Of a DNA stretch of 64,000 bases, positions 11,454 through 32,416 are shown piece by piece. The translations under genes and the position numbers were made by a program. The DNA is from Myxococcota bacterium (GTDB taxonomy: Bacteria > Myxococcota_A > UBA9042 > DTJE01): the NCBI GenBank assembly GCA_017994695.1, contig JAGOKF010000001.1, forward strand, positions 104,119-168,118. Reading direction: 5' to 3'. The notes under the pieces were generated by a model that saw only the letters and a list, made by a program, of their open reading frames with translations, was not told the DNA's origin and made no database searches. Numbering within the stretch: the stretch's first letter is position 1; every line of letters starts with the position of its first letter.

Positions 11454-11482
11454 TTGACCCGGCCCCCCACTTCCGGTAGGTT
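11454..11482 (+). promoter_or_regulatory. Promoter of the BtrH/ketosynthase operon
   Basis: TTGACC (11454-11459), a 17-bp spacer and TAGGTT (11477-11482) lie 31 bp before the first gene of the operon at 11514. The following eight genes overlap or are spaced by at most 34 bp, so this could drive the whole set. Confidence 0.55.
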
Positions 11483-11513: not shown

Positions 11514-11945
11514 ATGCCGGTCGATGAACGCGTCACCCGCCCGGGGGCCCCGGACCGGTGGCAAAGAATCGTCACCTACCGCCCCGACGATCAGGGGCGG
11601 GTGGTGGCCCGGCAGGACGACGGGTTCGAGGAGAGCCGCCTGGTCCACGAGCAGGCCTGGGAGGTGATCCACCGGGACTCCGCCCGGGCCTGGGAAGAGG
11701 TCCGGGCCGGCCGCCGGAGCCCTCTCTACTTCCACATGGTGGCCAACCTGATGCACCCGGACGACCTGGCGGAACACGCCGGGATGTGGCGATGGAGGGT
11801 CCGTCGCCACCTTCGGCCCGAGGTCTTTCGGAGGCTGCCTCGACGGGTGCTGGAACGCTACGCGGAGGTCCTCGGGGTCACCGTGGAGGAACTGCAGGCG
11901 ATCCCGGACCAGCCCCCACCCACCTCCTCTCCCGGGGAGCCATGA
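11514..11945 (+). CDS. Small HTH-like protein heading the ketosynthase operon
   Basis: This 143-residue protein is not one I recognise by name. The N-terminal half is acidic and hydrophilic. The C-terminal half (about residues 75-130) contains LMHPDDLAEHAGMWRWRVRR, an 'RLPRRVLERYAEVLGV' segment and VTVEEL, a spacing of helices reminiscent of Cro/C1-type helix-turn-helix domains ('LAe.aGl.......L....l..yA..LgV..eeL'). It could be a dedicated regulator or a structural partner of the next gene. The start ATG at 11514 has GGGAGCAGCGG upstream, and the stop overlaps the BtrH-like start (ATGATGA), so it is translationally coupled to it. Confidence 0.6.
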   Translation: MPVDERVTRPGAPDRWQRIVTYRPDDQGRVVARQDDGFEESRLVHEQAWEVIHRDSARAWEEVRAGRRSPLYFHMVANLMHPDDLAEHAGMWRWRVRRHLRPEVFRRLPRRVLERYAEVLGVTVEELQAIPDQPPPTSSPGEP

Positions 11946-12952
11946 TGCGGATTCCCTTCGACCACCTCCAGGGAGCCCACTGCGAGACCGCCACGCTGGC
12001 CAGCCTGCTCCGGCACCGGGGCCTGTCGCTGAGCGAGCCCATGGTGTTCGGGATCGGGTCGGGATTCTTCTTCGGCTACCTGCCCTTCCTGAAGGTGACG
12101 GACAAGAAGTTCCCCCTGGTGACCTTCCGGGCCCCCCCGGGGGCGATTCTCCGGAAGGTTTCCCGGAGGCTGGGACTGCGCTTCCACGATCGGACCTTCC
12201 GGGACCCCGAGGAGGCGATGGCCGAACTGGACCGCTGCCTGGACCAGGGGATCCCGACGGCGGTCCAGACGGGGGTCTTCTACCTGCCCTACCTGCCAGG
12301 GGCGTTCCGGTTCCACTTCAATGCCCACAACATCATCGTGTTCGGGCGGGAGGGGGACGACTACCTGGTCAGCGACCCGGTCCTGGCGGAGCCGGTGCGG
12401 TGCTCCCACCGGGACCTGAAACGGGCCCGCTTCTCCCGGGGGGAGATGGCCCCCAGGGGGAGGCTCTACTACCCGACCCGGGTCCCACAGGGCGTGGACC
12501 TCCGGAAACCCGTCCGGGACGGCCTGAAGGACACAGTCTTCCAGATGCTGCGAATCCCGATCCCCCTGATCGGGGTCCGGGGCATCCGGCGCCTCTCGAA
12601 GGTGGTCCGGGAGTGGCCCCGGCGCATGACGCCGGAGATGGCGGCCCTGAACGCGGGACACCTGGTGCTGCTGCTGGAGGAGATCGGGACCGGCGGCGCG
12701 GGCTTCCGGTTCATGTTCGGGGCCTTCCTGCAGGAGGCCGCGGACTGCCTGGGCCTGCCGGACCTCCGGGAGCCGGCCGGGCAGTTCGTCGAGGCGGGGG
12801 ACCTGTGGAGGGAGTTCGCCCTGCTGGCCTCCCGGACCTGCAAGGGACGCACGGACGTCCCGGACCCCTATGAACGCCTGGGGGAGATCCTGGTCCGGTG
12901 CGCGGACCGGGAAACGACGGCGCTCCGGCGCATCGGAGCCATCCTCCGCTGA
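11942..12952 (+). CDS. BtrH-like acyltransferase/peptidase-fold protein (BtrH_N + DUF4872)
   Basis: This 336-residue protein matches the BtrH family. Near the N-terminus HCETATLASLLRHRGLSLSE gives the conserved His-Cys pair (His13/Cys14) and is followed by VFGIGSGFFFGYLP; farther on comes FHFNAHNIIVFG, with a conserved-looking His-Asn pair, as in papain/C39-like folds. The C-terminal half (about 170-336) corresponds to DUF4872. In butirosin biosynthesis BtrH transfers an acyl side chain from the acyl carrier protein BtrI to the aminoglycoside acceptor. By analogy, with an ACP and ketosynthases encoded downstream, this protein may transfer or release the pathway product. Two ATG codons (11942, 11945) are possible starts. 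Confidence 0.75.
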   Translation: MMRIPFDHLQGAHCETATLASLLRHRGLSLSEPMVFGIGSGFFFGYLPFLKVTDKKFPLVTFRAPPGAILRKVSRRLGLRFHDRTFRDPEEAMAELDRCLDQGIPTAVQTGVFYLPYLPGAFRFHFNAHNIIVFGREGDDYLVSDPVLAEPVRCSHRDLKRARFSRGEMAPRGRLYYPTRVPQGVDLRKPVRDGLKDTVFQMLRIPIPLIGVRGIRRLSKVVREWPRRMTPEMAALNAGHLVLLLEEIGTGGAGFRFMFGAFLQEAADCLGLPDLREPAGQFVEAGDLWREFALLASRTCKGRTDVPDPYERLGEILVRCADRETTALRRIGAILR

Positions 12953-12973
12953 CCTTTTCGGAGAAGACCGCCC

Positions 12974-13717
12974 ATGCAGGTCCTTCAAGCCTCGGGACTC
13001 CGGTTCACCTACCGGGGAGCGCGGGAACCGGCGCTCCGAGGGCTGGACCTGGAGGTGGGCGAGGGGGAGATCGTCGGCCTGCTGGGTCCCAACGGGGCCG
13101 GCAAGACCACGGCCATCTCCCTCTGCACCGGCCTGCTTCCCTGCCGGGAGGGGGAGATCCGGCACTTCGGGCAGGACCTCCGCCGGGCCCCCGTGTCCCT
13201 GAGGCGCCGCCTGGGACTGGTGCCCCAGGAGGTGGCGCTCTACGGGACCCTGACGGTGGAGGAGAACCTGCGGTTCTTCGGCCGCCTGCTGGGCCTCCGG
13301 GGCGGGGACCTGGACCGGGGAGTGGCCCTGGCCCTGGAACGGACCTTCCTGGACGACGTGCGGGACCGGCCGGTGCGGACCCTGTCGGGAGGACTCCGGC
13401 GCCGGGCCAACCTGGCCGCGGGCCTGGTCCACGGCCCCGGCCTGCTGTTCCTGGACGAACCCACCGTGGGGGTGGACACCCAGAGCCGGGAGGCCATCCT
13501 CGAATCCCTGGCCCGGCTGGCCCGGGAGGGGCTGTCGATGCTGTACACCACCCACTACCTGGAGGAGGCCGAGCGCCTCTGCCACCGGGTGGTCATCATG
13601 GACCGGGGCCGGGTACTGGTCGCCGGGACTCCCGGGACGCTGCGGGAGAGGCATCCGGGATGCCCGGACCTCCGGGCGCTGTTCCTGGACCTGACCGGGA
13701 GGGACGTCCGTGACTGA
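12974..13717 (+). CDS. ABC-2 type exporter, ATP-binding subunit
   Basis: A 247-residue ABC ATPase. The Walker A motif is GPNGAGKTT (residues 38-46), the Q-loop lies in LVPQEVALYG, the signature is LSGGLRRRA, the Walker B is LLFLDEPTVGVD and the H-loop is TTHYLEE. This is the DrrA/NodI-like type, which pairs with separate ABC-2 permeases to export lipids, polyketides, polysaccharides or drugs. Its end overlaps the permease start by eight bases. Position in the operon suggests that it energises export of the ketosynthase product or of a lipid carrying it. Confidence 0.92.
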   Translation: MQVLQASGLRFTYRGAREPALRGLDLEVGEGEIVGLLGPNGAGKTTAISLCTGLLPCREGEIRHFGQDLRRAPVSLRRRLGLVPQEVALYGTLTVEENLRFFGRLLGLRGGDLDRGVALALERTFLDDVRDRPVRTLSGGLRRRANLAAGLVHGPGLLFLDEPTVGVDTQSREAILESLARLAREGLSMLYTTHYLEEAERLCHRVVIMDRGRVLVAGTPGTLRERHPGCPDLRALFLDLTGRDVRD

Positions 13718-15050
13718 TTTCCTGCGCCAGGTGCTGGCCGTGTGCGGGAAGGAGGCCCGGCTGCTGGCCCGGGATCGGGCGGGGATGCTGGTGCTCTTCG
13801 TGATGCCCCTGCTGCTGGCCCTGGTGGCCACCGTGGTCCAGGATCGGGCCATGCAGCTCCTGGCGGCGCCCCAACTGGACCTGCTGCTGCTGGACGAGGA
13901 TGGCGGCGAGGCCGGCCGGACCCTGGAGGAGGGTCTCCGGAGCGCCGGGATCTTCACGGTGAGCCGGACCCTGGACGGCGTGCCGGTGACCGAGGAAGCG
14001 GGGCGGCGCGCGGTGGCCCTCGGGAGGTACCAGGCGATGCTGCGCCTGCCGGCCGGGGTGACCGAGCGGACCCGGAGCCGGGCGGAGCGGCTGGCAGCCC
14101 GCCTGATGTCCCCGGCACTCCGGACCGCGCCGCCGAGCCTCGACGACCTGCCCCGGCCGCCCCGGCCGGTGCTCCGGGTGGACCCGGTGCTGCCCGATGC
14201 CTACCGGAAACTGCTGCGCAACGTGGTCGGGGGCGTGCTCCAGGGCTACGAGACCCGGCTGCTGGTCGAGGCCACGGCCCGGGAGATCGCCCGGCAGGCG
14301 GCGGCGGCCATCGGTCCGCCCCTGCCTGAACCCGTGCGCCAGGCCATGGAGACCATCCCGGCGGCGGCGCTGGCCATGTCGCCCCTGGCGGACCCCGAGG
14401 AGCGGGTGGCCACCGACCAGCCCTGGCTGACGATGCCCAGCGCGGCCCAGCAGAACATCCCGGCCTGGACCATCTTCGCGATGTACCTGATCGTCATTCC
14501 CCTGGCGGGATCGATGATCCGGGAACGGCGGGACCAGACCTCCCTGCGCATCCGGATGGCCCCCCGGGGCACCTCGGCCTCCCTGCTGGGCAAGGCCCTG
14601 ATCTACCTGGGGGTCTGCGGGACCCAGTTCGGGGTCATCTTCGCCGCCGGGGCGCTGGTGCTGCCCCTGGCGGGAATCGCCGGCTTCAGCCCCGGGGACC
14701 AGTGGCCGGAAGCCCTGGCGGTGGGGTTCGCGACGGCCCTGTCGGCCGTCGCCTTCGGGCTCCTGGTGGGGGCCCGGGCGGGAAGCCCCGAGCAGGCGGC
14801 CCTGTTCGGCGCGACCACCGTGGTGATCCTGGCGGCGATCGGCGGCGTGATGCTGCCCCTCTTCGTGATGCCCGAACCCCTGAAGGCCCTTGCCGCCTGG
14901 TCCCCCCTGGGATGGAGCCAGCGGGCCTTCCTGGACCTCTTCCTGCGGAGGGTGGAGTTCGGGGCGGTGATGCCCTGGATCGGGCGGTTGCTGGCCTTTT
15001 CGGCGGCCGGCACGGGCCTCGCGTTGACGTGGTCCCGCCGAAGGGCTTGA
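13710..15050 (+). CDS. ABC-2 type exporter, permease subunit
   Basis: This 446-residue membrane protein starts at a GTG that overlaps the ATPase gene. One transmembrane segment near residues 24-42 is followed by a large, mostly soluble extracytoplasmic region of about 210 residues and then five or so hydrophobic segments from about residue 255 to the end, which is the topology of ABC-2 permeases of the YhgE/Pip or DrrB kind. The region before the second membrane segment contains an amphipathic 'LTMPSAAQQNIPAWTIFAMY' start. Together with the ATPase it forms the operon's exporter. Confidence 0.88.
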   Translation: MTDFLRQVLAVCGKEARLLARDRAGMLVLFVMPLLLALVATVVQDRAMQLLAAPQLDLLLLDEDGGEAGRTLEEGLRSAGIFTVSRTLDGVPVTEEAGRRAVALGRYQAMLRLPAGVTERTRSRAERLAARLMSPALRTAPPSLDDLPRPPRPVLRVDPVLPDAYRKLLRNVVGGVLQGYETRLLVEATAREIARQAAAAIGPPLPEPVRQAMETIPAAALAMSPLADPEERVATDQPWLTMPSAAQQNIPAWTIFAMYLIVIPLAGSMIRERRDQTSLRIRMAPRGTSASLLGKALIYLGVCGTQFGVIFAAGALVLPLAGIAGFSPGDQWPEALAVGFATALSAVAFGLLVGARAGSPEQAALFGATTVVILAAIGGVMLPLFVMPEPLKALAAWSPLGWSQRAFLDLFLRRVEFGAVMPWIGRLLAFSAAGTGLALTWSRRRA

Positions 15051-15084
15051 ATCGGCGGAAACGGACCTGGATCGGAGGTGTCCG

Positions 15085-15351
15085 GTGGACGAGCGGATTG
15101 CGGAACTTCGGGAGTTGATCGCCCAGGCCTGCGACCTGGACCCGGCCCGGGTGGCCGCCCTCGGGGAGGAGGATCCCATCGTGGGACCCGAGTCGCCCCT
15201 GGGCCTGGACAGTCTGGACGCCCTGGAGATCGTCACCGCGATCCAGAGGCGCTACGGGGTGCGGATCGACAGCCAGAACACCAGCCTCCGGGTCCTGGCA
15301 AGCCTGCGGGCCCTGGCCCGGTTCATCGACGAACAGACGAGGGCGGGATGA
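15085..15351 (+). CDS. Acyl carrier protein
   Basis: An 88-residue carrier protein. The phosphopantetheine attachment site is Ser43 in GLDSLDALEIV, and the remaining sequence fits a four-helix ACP (helix II DALEIVTAIQRRYGV). The start is a GTG at 15085 with GGAGG six bases upstream. A standalone ACP of this size next to two ketosynthase-type genes defines a type II (dissociated) assembly line. The downstream ketosynthase start overlaps its stop (ATGA). This carrier is distinct from the fatty-acid ACP because no fab genes lie around it. Confidence 0.9.
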   Translation: MDERIAELRELIAQACDLDPARVAALGEEDPIVGPESPLGLDSLDALEIVTAIQRRYGVRIDSQNTSLRVLASLRALARFIDEQTRAG

Positions 15352-16523
15352 CCGGTCCCGCCGGGCGGATCCTCTCGACCGGTCTGGTCTCGGCCCTGGG
15401 CCTGGACGGTCCCCGAACGGTCCAGGCCCTCCGGGAAGGCCGCGACGGCGGGCGGCCCCTCCCGGCGACCCGGAGCCTGAAGGCCCCCCCGATCCCGGTG
15501 TCCGAGGTGCCGGAACTTCCCGAGGATTCCCTCATGCCCCGGGCCGATGCCCTGGCGATGCACGCCGTCGCCGAGGCCCTGGAACGGGCGGGACTCCGGG
15601 CGGAAGACCTGCGGGAGGCCGGGATCTTCCTCGGCACCGTGACCGGGGATGCCTTCGAAAGCGAGCGGCGCTACCGGGGCCAGATCCGGGAGGGATGGGT
15701 CCCCTGCGTCACCGTGGAACCGGGGCCGGGAGCGCTGGCCCTGCGCCTGGCCCGTTCCCTGGGAGTGGGCGGTCCGGTGGTCACGGTCGGGTCGGCGTGC
15801 ACCTCGTCGGCGGTCGCGCTGCTGATGGCGCTCCGGGCGGTCCAGCAGGGGGACGTGCCGATCGCCCTGGCGGTCGGGGTGGACCTGATCACCGCGACCC
15901 TGATCCACGGGTTCGAGGCCCTGATGCTGCTGGACCCCGAGGGATGCCGCCCCTTCGACCGGGACCGCAAGGGCATCCAACTGGGGGAGGGGGCGGCCGC
16001 CATCCTGATCGAAGCGGCGACCGGGTCCTCCCCCCGGGGTTCCCTGCTGATCGGAGGCGCCTCCCGGTGCCATCCCCACCACCTCACCGCCTCCGACCCC
16101 GACGGGGCCGGGGCCGAGGCGGTGATGCGGGCCGCCCTGGAGGATGCGGGACTGGCCCCGGAGGACCTCCGGGCGGTGAAGGGACACGGGACCGGCACCC
16201 CCGACAACGATCTGGCCGAGGGGCGAGCGACGGCGCGGGTCTTCCGGGGGAATCCTCCCCTCTGGACCGGCCTGAAGCGGTACCTGGGACACACGATGGG
16301 CGCATCCGGAGCCCTGGAGACGGCCGCGATGATCGGCTGCCTGGAGGAAGGGTTCGTTCCCGCCTGCCTGGGATTCCGGAACCAGGACGATGGGATCGGC
16401 CTGTCTCCCGCCGGGGAGGCCGCGCCCTTTCCCGGAGGGCCCGTGCTGCTGAACTGGTTCGGCTTCGGGGGCAACAGCGCCTCCCTGGTGGTGGACGTCC
16501 CGACCCGGGAGGGATCGCGGTGA
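15348..16523 (+). CDS. Beta-ketoacyl-ACP synthase (active KAS II-like)
   Basis: A 391-residue thiolase-fold ketosynthase. The catalytic triad is intact: Cys151 in GSACTSS, His280 in GHGTGTPDND and His315 in YLGHTMGAS. The C-terminal GFGGNSASL loop is also present. It should condense malonyl-ACP with an acyl thioester on the ACP encoded immediately upstream. Its start (ATG 15348) overlaps the ACP stop and its stop overlaps the next gene's start, so ACP, KS and KS-like partner are co-translated. Cys-His-His geometry and length match FabF and the KS of type II aryl polyene or polyketide systems. Confidence 0.92.
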   Translation: MTGPAGRILSTGLVSALGLDGPRTVQALREGRDGGRPLPATRSLKAPPIPVSEVPELPEDSLMPRADALAMHAVAEALERAGLRAEDLREAGIFLGTVTGDAFESERRYRGQIREGWVPCVTVEPGPGALALRLARSLGVGGPVVTVGSACTSSAVALLMALRAVQQGDVPIALAVGVDLITATLIHGFEALMLLDPEGCRPFDRDRKGIQLGEGAAAILIEAATGSSPRGSLLIGGASRCHPHHLTASDPDGAGAEAVMRAALEDAGLAPEDLRAVKGHGTGTPDNDLAEGRATARVFRGNPPLWTGLKRYLGHTMGASGALETAAMIGCLEEGFVPACLGFRNQDDGIGLSPAGEAAPFPGGPVLLNWFGFGGNSASLVVDVPTREGSR

Positions 16524-17470
16524 TGAAGGTCGTGGCAGCGGCGGCACTGCTTCCCGGGGAGGGACCCGGAGACCTCCGGGTCCCGGACCCGGCGATCCTG
16601 GAAGAGGCCCTGGGAATCCCGAGGCCCCGGCGGGTCAGCCGGCTGGCCCGCCTGGCGGCGGCGTCGGCCCTCGCGGCAGCCCGGCGGGCCGCACGGCCCC
16701 GTCCCTGGAACGATCTGGCGGTGTTGCTGGGATGCGGCCTGGGCAACGAGGGGGAAACCCGGCCGGTGGTGGAACGGACCGTGGCGATGGCGATGGGCCT
16801 GGCGGACGGCCCGGCCTCGCCGGTCCACTTCGCCAACTCGGTCAGCAACTCGGCGACCTTCCAGGTGGCCCAGGTGCTGGGGACCCGCGGACCCAACGCC
16901 GTCCTGTCCGCCGAGGGGCATTCCTTCGAAGCGGCCCTCTGGGCGGCCCGGTGGACGCTGCGATCGGGGGATGCGCCGGCGGTCCTGTGCGGGGGTCTGG
17001 ACGAGTGGACCGATCCCCGGGAGGGACCCCTGGCCCGGATGGGGCTTCCTCCCTCGGCCCGCCTGGGCGAGGGGGGCGGCTGGCTCTGGCTCGAGGCCGG
17101 ATCGCCCGGCGATCTCCCGGCAGACGACCTTCCCCTGCCGGGATCGATCCGTCCCCCGATGCGCCTGGCCGATCCCCGGAACCGGGAGGCCCTGGCCCGC
17201 ATGCTGGGGCGCCTTCGACCGGGATCGGAGGGAGTCCTGATGGTCGGCGCCGGAGTGGAACCACCGGATCTGGAACCCCTGGCCCGCTTCCCGCTCCGGC
17301 ACGATCCCTACCTCGATCGGACCGGGTGCTTCCCGACCGCCGCCGCCGCGGCCATCGCGGCGGCCTTCGAGAACCCGGAAGAACCCCCGGCGGTCCACGT
17401 CCACCTGGGCCGGGGGCCCCTGGGCCTCCTGGCCACCCTGTTCCATCCCGGAGGTGCCCCATGTGGATGA
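16523..17470 (+). CDS. Cys-less ketosynthase-like partner (chain-length-factor type)
   Basis: A short (315-residue) ketosynthase-like protein. Family features are VHFANSVSNSATFQVAQVLG (residues 101-120) and then GPNAVLSAEGHSFEAAL, which aligns with the nucleophile elbow of ketosynthases, but the catalytic Cys is replaced: residues 129-134 read SAEGHS, with Gly132 at the expected position. The downstream histidine blocks of an active KS are not visible. It therefore probably acts as an inactive heterodimer partner like a chain length factor or PF13723-type 'ketoacyl-synt_2' protein. The ATG at 16523 overlaps the KS stop; a GTG three bases upstream is an alternative. Confidence 0.75.
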   Translation: MKVVAAAALLPGEGPGDLRVPDPAILEEALGIPRPRRVSRLARLAAASALAAARRAARPRPWNDLAVLLGCGLGNEGETRPVVERTVAMAMGLADGPASPVHFANSVSNSATFQVAQVLGTRGPNAVLSAEGHSFEAALWAARWTLRSGDAPAVLCGGLDEWTDPREGPLARMGLPPSARLGEGGGWLWLEAGSPGDLPADDLPLPGSIRPPMRLADPRNREALARMLGRLRPGSEGVLMVGAGVEPPDLEPLARFPLRHDPYLDRTGCFPTAAAAAIAAAFENPEEPPAVHVHLGRGPLGLLATLFHPGGAPCG

Positions 17471-18756
17471 AACTGATCTACCCCCGCTGGCCGAAACTCC
17501 CGGAGCAGACCGAGTTCCACCTGCCGCCCCACGGCCCGATCGTCTTCGCGGCCAGCGTGCCTCCCGAGGTCCACCTGACCTTCCACGACGACAACCGGGG
17601 GGAGCCGGACCTGGAGGACCGGCCGGACCTGGTGGCCCTGTCGGTGATGCTGACCTGCCAGGTGCCCCGGGCCAAGGAGATCGCCGCCATCTACCGCCGC
17701 CGGGGCATCCCCGTGATCGCCGGGGGCATCGCCGTGGCGATCCACAGCGAGGAGATGGCCGCATGCTGCGACGCGGTCTTCCTCGGGGAGGTCGAGGGTC
17801 ATTTCCAGGAGGTCCTGGACGATTTCAAGGCCCGGCGCCTGAAGAGGGTCTATGACCGGATGCAGGCCCTGCCCCCCATCGAGTCGGTCCCCCCCGCACG
17901 GCGCGAGATCCTGGACTATTCCCTCTACACCTACCGGGGGGTCCGGATGGTGGACCTGGTCCACGCCTCCCGGGGCTGCCGGTTCCAGTGCCCGCCGTGC
18001 AGCGTGGCCTTCCTGGGAGGCCGCTGCTTCCGGCCCCGGCCCGTCGAGCGGGTGGTGGAGGAGGTCGCGGGGATCGACAACGGGCGCCTCTTCTTCGTGG
18101 ACAACAGCCTGGCCCAGAACAAGGCCTGGGAACTGGAACTCTTCCGGGCCCTGAAGCCCCTGAAGCGCAAGTGGATCAGCCACCCCATCGAGGCCGACGA
18201 CGAGGTGCTCCAGGCTGCCTACGAGGCGGGCGCCTGGTACGTGTACCAGGCCATCACGGCCCCCACCGAGGGGATCCGGCGCCGCATCCAGATGTACCGG
18301 GACCACGGCATCGCCATCGAAGGAACCATCATCCTGGGCACCGACGATCAGACCCGGGAGGACGTGATCCGGCTGGTGGAGTTCTGCGTGGAGATGGACC
18401 TGGACATGGCCGAGTTCACGGTGATGACCCCCTTCCTGCACACGCCCTACCGGGAGCAGGTGGAGGCCGAGGGGCGGGTCCTGCACAACGACTGGTCCCA
18501 GTACACGACCGGCAAGGTGGTCTTCCAGCCGAAACACATGACCCCCTCGGAACTGCAGGACCTCTACCACTGGGCCTGGGACCGCTTCTACGGCGCCGAC
18601 GGGCGCCAGACCCGGATGGCCCGGCTGTTCCGGAAGGTGGTGCTGCGGGAGAGGCAGGACGGAACCACGACGATGCCTGACGGCACGGTCCGGGGCTGGG
18701 TCCGGCCGGGGTCCGGGTCGCAGGCGGGCACCGGGGACTCCCCGGGCAATCCGTAG
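17461..18756 (+). CDS. B12-binding-type radical SAM enzyme of the ketosynthase operon
   Basis: A 431-residue protein. The radical SAM cluster ligands are Cys173, Cys177 and Cys180 in GCRFQCPPCSV (CxxxCxxC). Residues about 50-120 (LVALSVMLTCQVPRAKEIA, GIPVIAGGIAVAI, CDAVFLGEVEGHFQEVL) form the Rossmann-like region found before the barrel in B12-binding radical SAM enzymes, although the DxHxxG motif for histidine-on cobalamin is not obvious. The family includes methyltransferases acting on unactivated carbons, ring contraction enzymes and HpnP/HpnR-type lipid methylases. The start ATG overlaps the previous stop and has GGAGG upstream; the ATG two codons on is an alternative. Confidence 0.85.
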   Translation: MWMKLIYPRWPKLPEQTEFHLPPHGPIVFAASVPPEVHLTFHDDNRGEPDLEDRPDLVALSVMLTCQVPRAKEIAAIYRRRGIPVIAGGIAVAIHSEEMAACCDAVFLGEVEGHFQEVLDDFKARRLKRVYDRMQALPPIESVPPARREILDYSLYTYRGVRMVDLVHASRGCRFQCPPCSVAFLGGRCFRPRPVERVVEEVAGIDNGRLFFVDNSLAQNKAWELELFRALKPLKRKWISHPIEADDEVLQAAYEAGAWYVYQAITAPTEGIRRRIQMYRDHGIAIEGTIILGTDDQTREDVIRLVEFCVEMDLDMAEFTVMTPFLHTPYREQVEAEGRVLHNDWSQYTTGKVVFQPKHMTPSELQDLYHWAWDRFYGADGRQTRMARLFRKVVLRERQDGTTTMPDGTVRGWVRPGSGSQAGTGDSPGNP

Positions 18757-18775
18757 GCCCCAGAAGGAAGGCTTC

Positions 18776-19819
18776 ATGCGCATTGGACCCGTTCCCCAGA
18801 ACCCTTGGGAACGCCTGGGACTCTGGACCGACCGGGTCCCAACCCCGATCCTGGAAACGTTCCATGGCCTGCTGCTGGCCCGTTCCCTGATGGCGGCCTG
18901 CCGGTTCGGCCTGCTGGACGCCCTGGCCGACGGGCCCCGGACCCCGGAGGAGGTGGCCCGGGAGTGCGGGTGCCAGCCGGAGCCCGCCGACAGGCTCCTC
19001 CAGGTGCTGGCCTCGATGGGCTACATCCGGTGGGACGGCAACCGGGCGCACCTGACCCCCCTGGCCCGGCGGTGGCTGCTGGCCTCCTCTCCTGACTCCC
19101 TCCGGGACTACGTGCTGTTCCGGTACCGGGAATGGGAGTTCGTCGAGGGACTCGAGGAACACCTGCAGACCGGCCGTCCGATGGTGGAGTCCTCCCGGAT
19201 GGACCGGGAAGCCTGGGGGCTCTACCAGAGAGGGATGCGGGCGGTGTCGCGCCTGGGTTCGCCCGAGGTGGCCCGGCGGACGCCGGTCCCCCCGTCGCCC
19301 CGGACGCTGCTGGACATCGGCGGCGGCCACGGGGCGCTCGCCGCGGCCTTCTGCCGGCGCCATCCCACCCTGACCGCCCAGGTGCTGGACCTGCCCGATG
19401 CGGTGGAGCACGCAGCACCCCTGCTGGCCGAGGAGGGACTGGGGGAACGGATTCGCCACTGGCCCGGGGACGTCTTCCGGACGGACCTGGGAGAGGCGCG
19501 CTTCGACGTGATCCTGATGGCGAACTTCCTGCATCACTTCCCGGAGCCGACCTGCCGGGACCTGGTCGCACGGGCCGCCCGGGCCCTCCGGGCGGGCGGG
19601 GTCCTGGCCTGCGTGGATTTCTTCCGCCCCGACCAGCGCTGCACCTCCAACCAGATGACCACCCTGATGCACCTGTATTTCGCGATGACCAGCGGGTCGG
19701 CGATCTGGACCACGGGGGAGGTGGCGGGCTGGCAGCGGGATGCGGGCCTCAGCCCGCGGCCGCCGGTGCGGCTGCGCCGGGCCCCCGGGGCCTCGATCCA
19801 GTCCGCGATGCGGTCATGA
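18776..19819 (+). CDS. SAM-dependent O-methyltransferase (acetylserotonin-type)
   Basis: A 347-residue class I methyltransferase. Residues about 28-105 form the N-terminal winged-helix dimerisation domain typical of the O-methyltransferase_2 family (LLLARSLMAACRFGLLDAL, then EEVARECG). The SAM loop is LLDIGGGHGALAA around residue 178-190, followed by VLDLPDAVEHA and the NFLHHFPEP motif IV region. Such enzymes methylate hydroxyl groups of small aromatic or polyketide substrates. As the last gene of the operon, 19 bp after the radical SAM gene, it is the likely tailoring methyltransferase. It runs six bases into the convergent neighbour. Confidence 0.88.
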   Translation: MRIGPVPQNPWERLGLWTDRVPTPILETFHGLLLARSLMAACRFGLLDALADGPRTPEEVARECGCQPEPADRLLQVLASMGYIRWDGNRAHLTPLARRWLLASSPDSLRDYVLFRYREWEFVEGLEEHLQTGRPMVESSRMDREAWGLYQRGMRAVSRLGSPEVARRTPVPPSPRTLLDIGGGHGALAAAFCRRHPTLTAQVLDLPDAVEHAAPLLAEEGLGERIRHWPGDVFRTDLGEARFDVILMANFLHHFPEPTCRDLVARAARALRAGGVLACVDFFRPDQRCTSNQMTTLMHLYFAMTSGSAIWTTGEVAGWQRDAGLSPRPPVRLRRAPGASIQSAMRS

Positions 19820-20581
19820 ATCCCTCTGGGACATCCTTTCGGTGTAGAGCAGTCGGGTCCATTGCCTGAACGGGGCCGTCTCGGTCGAGGCCAGGGTCGC
19901 CATCGCCAGGGAATCCAGGATCACCAGGGCATTGGGCGTCGCGTCCCCCCGCTGGCCCGGGATGGTGCCCAGCCGTTCCGCGAAGGCCGCGTTCAGCAGG
20001 GAGACCTCCTCGAGGTAGGCCTGCAGCGCCCGGGGATTCCATTCGAAAGGAAGCCCCTGGCGTTCCCGGGCCCACTGCTCGAACAGGAACAGCGACAGGA
20101 AGCGCTGGGTGCTCTCGAACTGGGTCTGGAGCGGGAGATGGGTCTGCACCATCGGGCGCATCCGGTTCAGCACCGGGCAGCCCGAGGTCGGCATGTAGAT
20201 CCCCGCCAGGCTGGACACGGCCTTCTGCAGCGTGGTCTGGCGCTGGTAGTTGCGGTGCTCGGTCTCCACCCAGAGGTCCACCGGGGTCCATGAAACGGCG
20301 TTCTTGAAGGCGGACGCGAGTTCCGAGAGGGCCACCGCCGCCGGGCAGTGGGCGTGCTGCCCGGGGTCCAGGGAGCAGGGGCGGCAGCGGTGGTTTTCCA
20401 GCCGGGCCCAGTCGGGCGGCGGGTCTTCGGGCCAGGACAGCAGGTTCAGGGTGACCCGGTCCAGCACCACCCGGAAGGTCTGTTGCCGGCCGTCCTGGAA
20501 GGTCATCCGGTACAGGATCACCACGGGATGCGAAGCCGGCTGGTCCGGAAGCACCTCCCCGGTGTTCGGGTCCACGAACAT
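19814..20581 (-). CDS. DUF6901-like protein with conserved Cys/His cluster
   Basis: A 255-residue cytoplasmic-looking protein with no signal peptide. The central block ENHRCRPCSLDPGQHAHCP (about residues 62-80, with Cys66, Cys69 and Cys79 and two histidines) could bind a metal. It is followed by VETEHRNYQRQTTLQKA and GIYMPTSGCP, a pattern I associate with the uncharacterised DUF6901 family; I am moderately sure of that name. The N-terminus VVILYRMTFQDGRQQTFRVV looks like a beta sheet. GGGAGG precedes the ATG and a promoter candidate lies at 20611-20640. No function can be assigned; it overlaps the methyltransferase tail to tail. Confidence 0.7.
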   Translation of the reverse strand: MFVDPNTGEVLPDQPASHPVVILYRMTFQDGRQQTFRVVLDRVTLNLLSWPEDPPPDWARLENHRCRPCSLDPGQHAHCPAAVALSELASAFKNAVSWTPVDLWVETEHRNYQRQTTLQKAVSSLAGIYMPTSGCPVLNRMRPMVQTHLPLQTQFESTQRFLSLFLFEQWARERQGLPFEWNPRALQAYLEEVSLLNAAFAERLGTIPGQRGDATPNALVILDSLAMATLASTETAPFRQWTRLLYTERMSQRDS

Positions 20582-30370: not shown

Positions 30371-32416
30371 ATGGAATCCCGTCGATGTCCGGGAAACGCC
30401 TTGGGGCTGATCGTGCTGCTTTCGGCATGGGCCCTCGCCTGCGGCGGGGGATCGGGGACCGGGGGGATCGACCTGCAGACCGGCGACCTCCCTGAGGTGA
30501 CGGACGGCCTGTTGTCGGATCAGGGGCCGGGGGACGAGGGAACCCCTGATGCCGAACTGGCCGCGCCGGATCTTCCGCCCGATTCCGCGGCGGACCCGGG
30601 TGCCTCCGAGGACGTCGGGGGCGGGGTCGACGTGCCGGCATCCTGCCAGGCCGATCGGGAGTGCGACGACGAGAACGCCTGCACGACGGATCGCTGCGTG
30701 TCCGGCCGGTGCGTGCTGTCGCGCCTGGTCTGCAACGATCTGGACCCCTGCACGATCGACTTCTGCGACCCGGCGAAGGGCTGCGGGACCCTGCCGGTGG
30801 AGGGCTGCGTGAACCCGGTCTGCGAGACCGCCACGGACTGCAACGACTCCGACCCCTGCTCCCAGGACCTCTGCGACGCGACCACCGGGACCTGCTTCTA
30901 CCGGGCGGTGGTCTGCGACGACGGCGACCCCTGCACGGTGGACTCCTGCACCCCGGGGGTGGGATGCGTGTCCTGGCGGGACGGGTCCTGCTCGCGGTGC
31001 CTGCTGGATTCCGAGTGCGACGACCGGGACGTCTGCACCACCGACCGATGCGTGGATGGCGCCTGCACGCACCTCCTGACCGTCTGCGACGACAAGAACC
31101 CCTGCACCCAGGACCGCTGCGACCCCAGGAAGGGCTGCCTGGCCGTGCCGCTCGAGGGCTGCGGTCCCTGCCAGACCGACCCGGAGTGCGACGACGGGGA
31201 CGTCTGCACGAGGGACGCATGCCAGGATGGCCAGTGCCTGCACCAGGACGTCCCCTGCGACGACGGGAACGCCTGCACGGCCGACCGGTGCGTCCGGGGG
31301 CCGGGCTATCCCTACTGCGCCTACGACGCCCTGGCGGAGGGGACCCCCTGCGACGACGGCAACCCCTGCACCGGGCCCGATGCGTGCTCCGAAAAGACCT
31401 GCACCGGGACGCCGCTGACCTGCGACGACGGCGACCTCTGCACCACGGACCGGTGCCTGGACGGCGTCTGCCGGAACACCGCGGTGGTCTGCGACGACGG
31501 GAACGCCTGCACGGCCGATTCCTGCGACCGGGGGACCGGCAAGTGCGTCTTCGAGACCATTCCCGGATGCGGCACGAAGTGCCAGGCCGACGCCGACTGC
31601 AACGACAACGACGTCTGCACCCGGGACAGGTGCGTCAACGGCGCCTGCCAGTTCACGGCGATCGTCTGCAACGACAACAACCCCTGCACCGTCAACGACC
31701 GGTGCGTCCGGGGGCCCGGGTATCCCTACTGCGCCTACGACGAGGCTCCCGAGGGAACCGCCTGCGACGACGGAAACGCCTGCACCCGGGGGGACGTGTG
31801 CGTATCGAAGACCTGCACCGGCACCGCCATCTCCTGCGACGACAATGACCCCTGCACCACCGACGCCTGCGACCCCGCCACCGGCTGCACCCACACGGCG
31901 GTGCCGAACTGCAACGTGAAGTGCCAGGCCGACGCCGACTGCAACGACAACGACGTCTGCACCCGGGACAAGTGCGTCAACGGCGTCTGCCAGTTCACGG
32001 TGATCATCTGCAACGACAACAACCCCTGCACCGTCAACGACCGGTGCGTCCGGGGGCCCGGGTATCCCTACTGCGCCTACGACGCGGCTCCCGAGGGAAC
32101 CGCCTGCGACGACGGCAACCCCTGCACCCGGGGAGACGTCTGCGTGTCGAAGACCTGCACCGGCACCGCCGTCTCCTGCGACGACGGCAATCCGTGCACG
32201 ACCGACGCCTGCGATGCGGACACCGGCGGATGTACGCACACCGCGATCCCGGGATGCGTGACGCCCTGCCGGACCTCGAAGCAGTGCGACGACGGCAATC
32301 CCTCGACCTGCGACTGCTGCTGCGCGCTGTCCGGGTCGGCCTACCAGTGCTACAACGTCGCCTCCCCGGTCGGGGTCTGCCCGCCCTGCACGCAGGTCCC
32401 GGGCTGCGTCCAGTAG
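30371..32416 (+). CDS. Lipoprotein of tandem cysteine-rich repeats (myxobacterial type)
   Basis: A 681-residue exported lipoprotein: signal peptide, lipobox ALAC near residue 24, then an acidic, disordered linker to about residue 95. The rest consists of about sixteen Cys-rich units of the form CDDGNPCTTDxCD..TG.C, two of them arranged with a 'VRGPGYPYCAYD' insert. The Asp/Asn-rich loops suggest calcium binding and the regular cysteines suggest many disulfides, so the protein should fold outside the cytoplasm as a rigid rod. Such repeat proteins are abundant in Myxococcota. A tandem DNA duplication is recorded separately. Cargo or function is unknown; adhesion or surface binding is plausible. 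Confidence 0.85.
   Translation: MESRRCPGNALGLIVLLSAWALACGGGSGTGGIDLQTGDLPEVTDGLLSDQGPGDEGTPDAELAAPDLPPDSAADPGASEDVGGGVDVPASCQADRECDDENACTTDRCVSGRCVLSRLVCNDLDPCTIDFCDPAKGCGTLPVEGCVNPVCETATDCNDSDPCSQDLCDATTGTCFYRAVVCDDGDPCTVDSCTPGVGCVSWRDGSCSRCLLDSECDDRDVCTTDRCVDGACTHLLTVCDDKNPCTQDRCDPRKGCLAVPLEGCGPCQTDPECDDGDVCTRDACQDGQCLHQDVPCDDGNACTADRCVRGPGYPYCAYDALAEGTPCDDGNPCTGPDACSEKTCTGTPLTCDDGDLCTTDRCLDGVCRNTAVVCDDGNACTADSCDRGTGKCVFETIPGCGTKCQADADCNDNDVCTRDRCVNGACQFTAIVCNDNNPCTVNDRCVRGPGYPYCAYDEAPEGTACDDGNACTRGDVCVSKTCTGTAISCDDNDPCTTDACDPATGCTHTAVPNCNVKCQADADCNDNDVCTRDKCVNGVCQFTVIICNDNNPCTVNDRCVRGPGYPYCAYDAAPEGTACDDGNPCTRGDVCVSKTCTGTAVSCDDGNPCTTDACDADTGGCTHTAIPGCVTPCRTSKQCDDGNPSTCDCCCALSGSAYQCYNVASPVGVCPPCTQVPGCVQ
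31579..31873 (+). repeat. First copy of a tandem near-identical 295-bp repeat in the lipoprotein gene
   Basis: The DNA from 31579 is repeated at 31921, an offset of 342 bases (114 codons). Differences are few and scattered (for example AGGTGCG versus AAGTGCG), so the duplication looks recent; the intervening 47 bases differ more. Confidence 0.85.
31921..32215 (+). repeat. Second copy of the 295-bp repeat in the lipoprotein gene
   Basis: This is the downstream copy of the unit at 31579. Both keep the reading frame and encode about 98 residues, including the VRGPGYPYCAYD insert; a more diverged third relative is visible upstream around 31285-31420. Confidence 0.85.

Follow-up and report, generated by a model that had tools for sequence, protein, structure and literature searches.

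Here we describe a nine-gene operon at positions 11514-19819 of a 64,000-nucleotide stretch of a Myxococcota genome, hereafter the window. Judged by protein families and gene order, genes one to seven correspond to an established set, the dar operon of dialkylresorcinol and arcuflavin pathways. The new part is the absence of DarB, together with a radical S-adenosylmethionine (SAM) enzyme at the 3' end, whose family also occurs in Verrucomicrobiota within clusters of the aryl-polyene type. We consider it probable that this DarB-less operon, with its 3' radical SAM enzyme and O-methyltransferase, serves to finish, transfer and export the product of a polyene-lipid pathway whose genes are split over several loci. 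An earlier reading made from the sequence alone had proposed an undescribed type II pathway; that did not hold for the core, which is already known from the DarG and DarH families (both over NCBIfam cut-offs) and from the gene order in Azoarcus. The recurrent, syntenic set that it had proposed as a check was found, the same gene order being present in other Myxococcota genomes. No dar operon that includes a radical SAM gene was described in the titles and abstract openings surveyed, which came from an open-access library without most subscription papers. Genomes, contigs, loci and families are given by our own G, C, L and f numbers.

Gene content and order of the operon

The assignment to the dar operons is carried by two protein families and a gene order. 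DarG scores 117.9 bits against NF053536 (DarG_fam, cut-off 70) and DarH 410 bits against NF053550 (cut-off 300). The Azoarcus dar cluster is given as darA, darB, darD (hypothetical), darE (BtrH-like), darF (ATP-binding cassette (ABC) ATPase), two toxin-antitoxin-like genes, darI (permease), darC (acyl carrier protein, ACP), darJ (ketosynthase, KS) and darK (hypothetical) (PMC3949708). The window series DarG-DarH-ABC-permease-ACP-KS-chain-length factor (CLF) follows the order darD-E-F-I-C-J-K of that listing, minus the toxin-antitoxin-like pair. Furthermore, in a maximum-likelihood tree, which took in no Azoarcus DarJ, the window KS clusters, with support of 100/99, with ketosynthases encoded in the dar loci L056-L058 of other Myxococcota, a clade that places it as a DarJ-type ketosynthase, and it stands separate from the KSs encoded on contigs C27, C129 and C157 of its own genome.

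The missing member of the set is DarB: none is encoded in the operon, and no StlD/DarB match in the genome-wide search exceeds 92 bits (cut-off 450). Two of the other Myxococcota dar loci, L057 and L058, have a StlD/DarB-family protein beside DarG (472.6 and 477.8 bits, same cut-off), that of L058 scoring 415.9 bits against a narrower DarB model with a cut-off of 550; L056 has no StlD/DarB-family protein within the stretch read. Both DarB-bearing loci also have, between ACP and KS, a gene resembling flavin adenine dinucleotide (FAD)-dependent halogenases or reductases (L057:12982-14664, L058:305-1951), with weak NCBIfam matches.

Table 1. Genes of the operon, with window positions and the basis of each assignment
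Product	Position	Strand	Basis
DarG-family protein, 143 aa, C-terminal helix-turn-helix (HTH)-like fold (= Azoarcus darD)	11514..11945	+	NF053536, AF2 model, Foldseek
DarH, BtrH-related acyltransferase, 335-336 aa	11942..12952 (alternative start 11945)	+	NF053550, BtrH_N, DUF4872
ABC-2 exporter ATPase	12974..13717	+	PF00005 over cut-off; best NCBIfam drrA, under cut-off
ABC-2 exporter permease	13710..15050	+	PF12698 77.7 bits, cut-off 31.6
Acyl carrier protein with GLDSLD serine (= darC)	15085..15351	+	PF00550 34.5 bits, cut-off 20.8
Ketosynthase with Cys-His-His (= darJ)	15348..16523	+	PF00109/PF02801 over cut-off
Cys-less KS-like chain-length-factor protein (= darK)	16520..17470 (ATG alternative 16523)	+	PF13723 30.7, PF00109 28.9 bits, barely over cut-off
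Radical SAM enzyme with B12-binding-type domain, family without name	17461..18756	+	Pfam
O-methyltransferase, COMT/CrtF type, distantly FlxJ-like	18776..19819	+	PF00891, PF08100 over cut-off

The type II core of KS, CLF and ACP with an ABC-2 exporter pair and a BtrH-type transferase, as the sequence-only reading had it, was borne out by these family assignments. The ACP has its serine motif in the sequence, the KS has a complete Cys-His-His active site (SACTSS, GHGTGT, GHTMG), and the KS-like partner is without Cys at the nucleophile column in all nine aligned relatives, in an alignment judged by eye. DarH exceeds the Pfam cut-offs for BtrH_N (PF14399, 152.9 bits, cut-off 29.7) and DUF4872. 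Its His12-Cys13 pair, which had been called intact, is unchanged along with His124, His128 and Asp144 in 12/12 aligned relatives, so that it has the domain and the Cys-His pair of a BtrH-type acyltransferase. The HTH-like label for the first protein stood as a fold, XRE-type in a Foldseek comparison of the AF2 model with a best value of 2.3e-3, but no match reached E<=0.001 and Pfam HTH_26 stayed under cut-off. DarH matches were also seen in 45 of the 60 records of a plasmids collection (Acinetobacter plasmids); the seven such plasmid matches listed have 34% identity to the first half of DarH and the label 'BtrH N-terminal domain-containing protein'.

The radical SAM enzyme, the best-conserved protein of the operon, contains the CX3CX2C motif, and this assignment and that of the O-methyltransferase agree with Pfam. 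Its description as a B12 enzyme had one basis, a B12-binding Pfam match of 35.5 bits (cut-off 32.1), and the nearest fold is AprD4. AprD4 is not known to require cobalamin. At E<=1e-5 the family takes in 5,900 of the 7,999 scored candidates, with identity of at least 58% among the 120 matches listed, and it has no NCBIfam name; the window enzyme, at 52.5 bits against a cut-off of 360, is not a member of TIGR04072. The O-methyltransferase gene, whose product scores 48 bits against the FlxJ model (cut-off 560), lies 3' of the radical SAM gene in three of six operons.

All nine genes are open reading frames in one direction, and all were recovered by a codon-usage gene finder (its training drew in part on five of them), which confirms the nine packed genes first reported. 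Of the eight junctions, said to be mostly 4-bp overlaps, five do overlap, but just three by 4 bp, and the rest are gaps of 21, 34 and 19 bp. The promoter that had been named, TTGACC-17-TAGGTT, is present as a string at 11454-11482, but its -10 box agrees with the consensus at three of six positions. A consensus scan gave no promoter (0.3 expected by chance) and no terminator at the operon, where neither signal is distinguishable from chance. Directly after the operon comes a convergent gene for a DUF6901 protein (window 19814-20581; PF21842, 199 bits). Farther on, at window 30401-32416, a gene with several near-identical open frames on the reverse strand suggests tandem coding repeats.

Partner loci and distribution

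Outside the operon, the same genome has further loci of the type II kind. The locus on C27 encodes a KS, a KS-like protein, a TIGR04072 enzyme (369.6 bits, cut-off 360), a double KS, an ApeI-like dehydratase, a glycosyltransferase/acyltransferase, a thioesterase, LolA, an MMPL exporter and a DUF3261 protein. The last six, from the ApeI-type dehydratase to DUF3261, each exceed their Pfam cut-off and follow the sequence of the E. coli aryl polyene genes apeI-J-K-L-M-N in Table 1 of PMC8253772. The C129 locus encodes a KS, a KS-like protein, a dehydratase (23.8 bits with the ApeP-like model, under its cut-off of 27) and a FabG-type reductase. The components that characterize an aryl polyene cluster, namely KS/CLF, ketoreductase, dehydratases, ACP and LolA/RND export, are not in one cluster here: the operon has KS, CLF and ACP, and the others are on C27 and C129. 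The sequence-only reading had suggested that reductive steps would be borrowed from fatty-acid synthesis, which is not needed, given the ApeI-like dehydratase on C27 and the reductase and second dehydratase on C129; these dehydratases and the reductase adjoin further ketosynthases. In genome G011 (contig C201), genes for a BadF/BcrA-type ATPase (PF01869) and HGD-D (PF06050) lie beside a polyene-type locus (L116:15972-17983), with look-alikes noted by eye in L117 and L123; they possibly provide an aryl or acyl starter under anaerobic conditions.

The C157 locus (L120:9423-19342) is the third conserved type II locus of the genome. It encodes an ACP, an AcpS-like protein, a thioesterase, FabF, a DarB/StlD-like ketosynthase III (KSIII), acyltransferase-like and dehydrogenase-like proteins, two enoyl-CoA hydratases and a radical SAM protein carrying a B12-binding domain; a divergent TIGR04072-like enzyme (323 bits) is also found in this locus. 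The statement that the genome has no KSIII, drawn from zero PF08541 matches, was dropped after hmmscan and an NF005293 search found the C157 protein; the statement that it has no DarB was kept.

Distribution was surveyed in 377 Myxococcota genomes (DarH >200 bits, radical SAM enzyme E<=1e-80, StlD/DarB E<=1e-60), 13 of them from the window's own family. DarH is present in 14, the radical SAM enzyme in 12 and both in 10 (hypergeometric 5e-15, kinship ignored). Three of the double carriers, G176, G249 and G364, lie beyond the family (4e-5, kinship again ignored), and in these the radical SAM gene is away from DarG-DarH, with no KS or export genes nearby. StlD/DarB is found in seven genomes, three of them over cut-off; none of the seven has the radical SAM enzyme and two have DarH (G121, G129). 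Conversely, DarB at this threshold is in 0/12 carriers of the radical SAM enzyme.

Within the family, DarH, the radical SAM enzyme (at least 53% identity), TIGR04072 over its cut-off (barely so in G001, at 360) and the DarB-like KSIII all occur in the identical 7/13 genomes (G000, G001, G004, G005, G008, G011, G012), and the remaining six have none of the four; by chance, two sets of seven would coincide once in 1716, kinship ignored. Two further family genomes have radical SAM matches at about 30% only. Six of the seven carriers have the operon complete with its radical SAM gene, divided between contigs in G008 and G011; in G004, DarH is weaker (222 bits) and the 53% radical SAM enzyme is on a different contig. 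A second radical SAM copy (54%) lies about 12 kb from the TIGR04072 gene in G011 and G012. The radical SAM copy of G046 is near a gene that shares 34% identity with one from the G011 second-copy region; the G011 gene, which has no Pfam match, we take to be ApeG-like.

These data bear on whether the operon belongs to an ordinary dialkylresorcinol or flexirubin-type pathway whose ring-forming KS has diverged and been relocated to C157. The KSIII encoded there has StlD/DarB as its best subfamily (95.7 bits) and StlD among its best solved relatives, carries a Cys in an active-site-like HANCTSA, and occupies the same 7/13 family genomes as the operon DarH. We nevertheless regard this reading as unlikely, since the protein scores 92-96 bits against the cut-off of 450 that the StlD/DarB proteins of the G129 and G121 dar loci pass at 473-478, and sits in a conserved locus of its own; moreover, StlD/DarB at E<=1e-60 and the radical SAM enzyme coincide in 0/377 genomes.

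Four loci in the three double carriers outside the family and one further genome (L059, L060, L062 and L064, from G249, G364, G330 and G176, respectively) show an ACP-DarG-DarH series with a 600-aa protein and a permease, and no KS beside it. The C-terminal half of the 600-aa protein is an ABC ATPase and its N-terminal half looks methyltransferase-like, so we take it for a methyltransferase-ABC fusion. That the transfer and export module can take other suppliers speaks for a self-contained, undescribed type II pathway in the window, in which the operon's own KS-CLF-ACP and the reductases of fatty-acid synthase would give a short acyl group for DarH without the other loci; the tight operon with its own ACP, KS and exporter fits this as well. 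Such a pathway seems very improbable, however, when four markers on different contigs track together in 7/13 genomes and the Verrucomicrobiota homologues of the radical SAM enzyme sit in polyene-type clusters.

Those homologues occur in 18 of 288 Verrucomicrobiota genomes, and all 18 loci were read. By BLAST labels, the neighbours are a KS in 18, a GT2/acyltransferase in 17, a thioesterase in 16, a dehydratase in 16, an RND/MMPL protein in 13, LolA in 12 and an ACP in 12; most of the loci thus labelled contain aryl-polyene-type genes. In L168, Pfam confirmed the thioesterase, GT2, LolA and KS, and the exporter-like protein scored 17.8 against the MMPL cut-off of 20.5. A TIGR04072-like gene lies at most two genes away on the same strand in 16/18, and the six of these neighbours that were scored all gave 443-580 bits (cut-off 360). 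The exceptions are L169, where the contig ends just past the radical SAM gene, and L018, whose cluster includes a BchE/HpnJ-like radical SAM gene and where the enzyme adjoins a FlxJ-type methyltransferase (461.7 bits, cut-off 560); the L018 genome has no BtrH_N protein.

The name NCBI gives to TIGR04072, rSAM_ladder_B12, introduces a further alternative, a ladderane- or polyunsaturated-hydrocarbon-type lipid pathway in which the pair of radical SAM enzymes would introduce double bonds or rings into a fatty chain. The C27 enzyme passes the cut-off of this model, 'ladderane' clusters are reported from non-anammox Myxococcota and Verrucomicrobiota (PMC9902471), and clusters syntenic to the anammox ones are reported from D. 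psychrophila, which makes polyunsaturated hydrocarbons (PMC2649909). Against it stand the apeI-N order on C27 with an ApeI-like dehydratase over its Pfam cut-off, the dar-type composition of the operon, a set linked in Azoarcus to polyene esters, and the low TIGR04072 score of the window enzyme; we rate this alternative as distinctly improbable.

A proposed split polyene-lipid pathway

In the reading we favour, the pathway is split and flexirubin-like, and the operon would complete, transfer and export what is likely a new kind of polyene lipid. The aryl-polyene-type loci on C27 and C129 would build a polyene chain on ACPs, and the chain or its head group would be tailored by both radical SAM enzymes and the O-methyltransferase. 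The KS-CLF and ACP of the operon would supply the final acyl unit or carry it. Transfer of the acyl chain from the ACP to an acceptor other than dialkylresorcinol would fall to DarH, by a thiol mechanism with Cys, His and Asp, and the ABC pair would carry the conjugate across the inner membrane. The KSIII locus on C157 might contribute a starter unit or the acceptor. We infer one pathway over at least three loci because in Verrucomicrobiota the operon radical SAM enzyme usually stands next to TIGR04072 and because TIGR04072 accompanies DarH in 7/7 family genomes; with DarB absent, the acceptor would differ from dialkylresorcinol.

Several observations weigh against this reading. Seven of the ten double carriers belong to one family, and the co-occurrence counts carry no phylogeny correction. 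The radical SAM enzyme occurs without DarH in two of its 12 carriers (G013, G046), and DarH with neither DarB nor the radical SAM enzyme in two of its 14 (G212, G330). Among DarH carriers, the mutual exclusion of DarB and the radical SAM enzyme is no more than suggestive (Fisher 0.066). The radical SAM gene stands without KS or export genes nearby in G004 and in three family f45 genomes, on contigs that are partly short. DarG and DarH are in none of the 18 Verrucomicrobiota stretches, and the radical SAM enzyme therefore does not need a dar-type operon.

Other points concern the individual proteins. Transfer from ACP to acceptor is a putative activity of DarH, assigned through homology; against solved structures, its profile matched only AziU3/Azi29, weakly (E about 0.001), and, at its C-terminal end alone, three apCC-4-type chains (E 3e-5 to 0.001), the latter likely by chance. 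The DarB/StlD-like KSIII of C157, with its perfect co-occurrence, could supply a ring-forming function. The 'aryl' nature of the polyene is putative. The KS tree carries a long-branch warning, which includes the join of the dar-type group to the C27 and L018 KSs. Finally, the L058 protein at the DarA position has no family match itself and no relative among the labelled genes of the loci shown (L052-L055 left out), and no genome-wide DarA search was made; we call this gene DarA by position, as an assumption.

A wider version of the model is more tentative, and we hold it to be possible but doubtful. In it, the TIGR04072 ('ladderane'-type) clusters of Myxococcota and Verrucomicrobiota would make outer-membrane polyene lipids through two cooperating radical SAM enzymes. 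In the window's family, one such enzyme would have been captured by a dar operon that lost its resorcinol enzymes, and DarH would now esterify the polyene, after its radical modification, to a new head group, which would make the system the radical-SAM equivalent of flexirubin.

Relation to known systems and significance

Among the closest systems is that of Azoarcus sp. BH72, whose dar product, arcuflavin, is a xanthomonadin-dialkylresorcinol hybrid (PMC3949708). There, as in the window genome, the polyene genes are in separate loci of one genome. In Azoarcus, however, darA and darB adjoin darD, whereas the window operon is without darB and has nothing at the darA place; moreover, Table 1 of that report lists no radical SAM gene for the arc/dar loci, while the last two genes of the window operon encode a radical SAM enzyme and an O-methyltransferase. 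The flexirubin systems (flx plus dar) of Chitinophaga pinensis and Flavobacterium johnsoniae are similar in that the C. pinensis polyene cluster is described apart from the dialkylresorcinol (DAR) cluster (PMC3992019). The window genome has relatives of the FlxJ-type methyltransferase and the FlxB-type reductase, both under cut-off. The alcohol half of flexirubin is made by DarA/DarB, of which DarB is absent here, and the ligase-like FlxW is proposed to join polyene and DAR (PMC3992019).

As for the E. coli aryl polyene genes apeA-R, apeI-N is matched on C27 and the apeO-P-Q end resembles the KS, KS-like protein, dehydratase and reductase of C129, whereas Table 1 of PMC8253772 includes no radical SAM enzyme, DarG/DarH or ABC exporter. 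Butirosin BtrH has the BtrH_N domain with conserved Cys and His also found in the window DarH; unlike it, the window protein is a DarH equivalog with a DUF4872 C-terminal half, in an operon without aminoglycoside genes. The 'ladderane' clusters of anammox and other bacteria combine TIGR04072 with divergent FabF-like ketosynthases, as here (PMC2649909, PMC9902471), but the window radical SAM enzyme is of a separate family, a neighbour of TIGR04072 in Verrucomicrobiota and part of a dar-type operon here.

The findings assign to a probable pathway a radical SAM family that is highly conserved and has no NCBIfam name. They also establish that the DarG-DarH-exporter module exists without DarB, which suggests that the acceptor of DarH need not be a resorcinol. 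Non-anammox 'ladderane' clusters have been reported from several phyla, including Myxococcota and Verrucomicrobiota, and may have unknown functions (PMC9902471); they are likely the TIGR04072 clusters examined here. In Verrucomicrobiota the radical SAM family neighbours TIGR04072, and in Myxococcota with a TIGR04072/apeI-N locus it is part of a DarH/exporter operon; this linkage suggests a role for 'ladderane' clusters as polyene-lipid pathways. Of widest interest is that TIGR04072 'ladderane'-type genes beyond anammox bacteria are hereby tied to aryl-polyene and dar-type genes.

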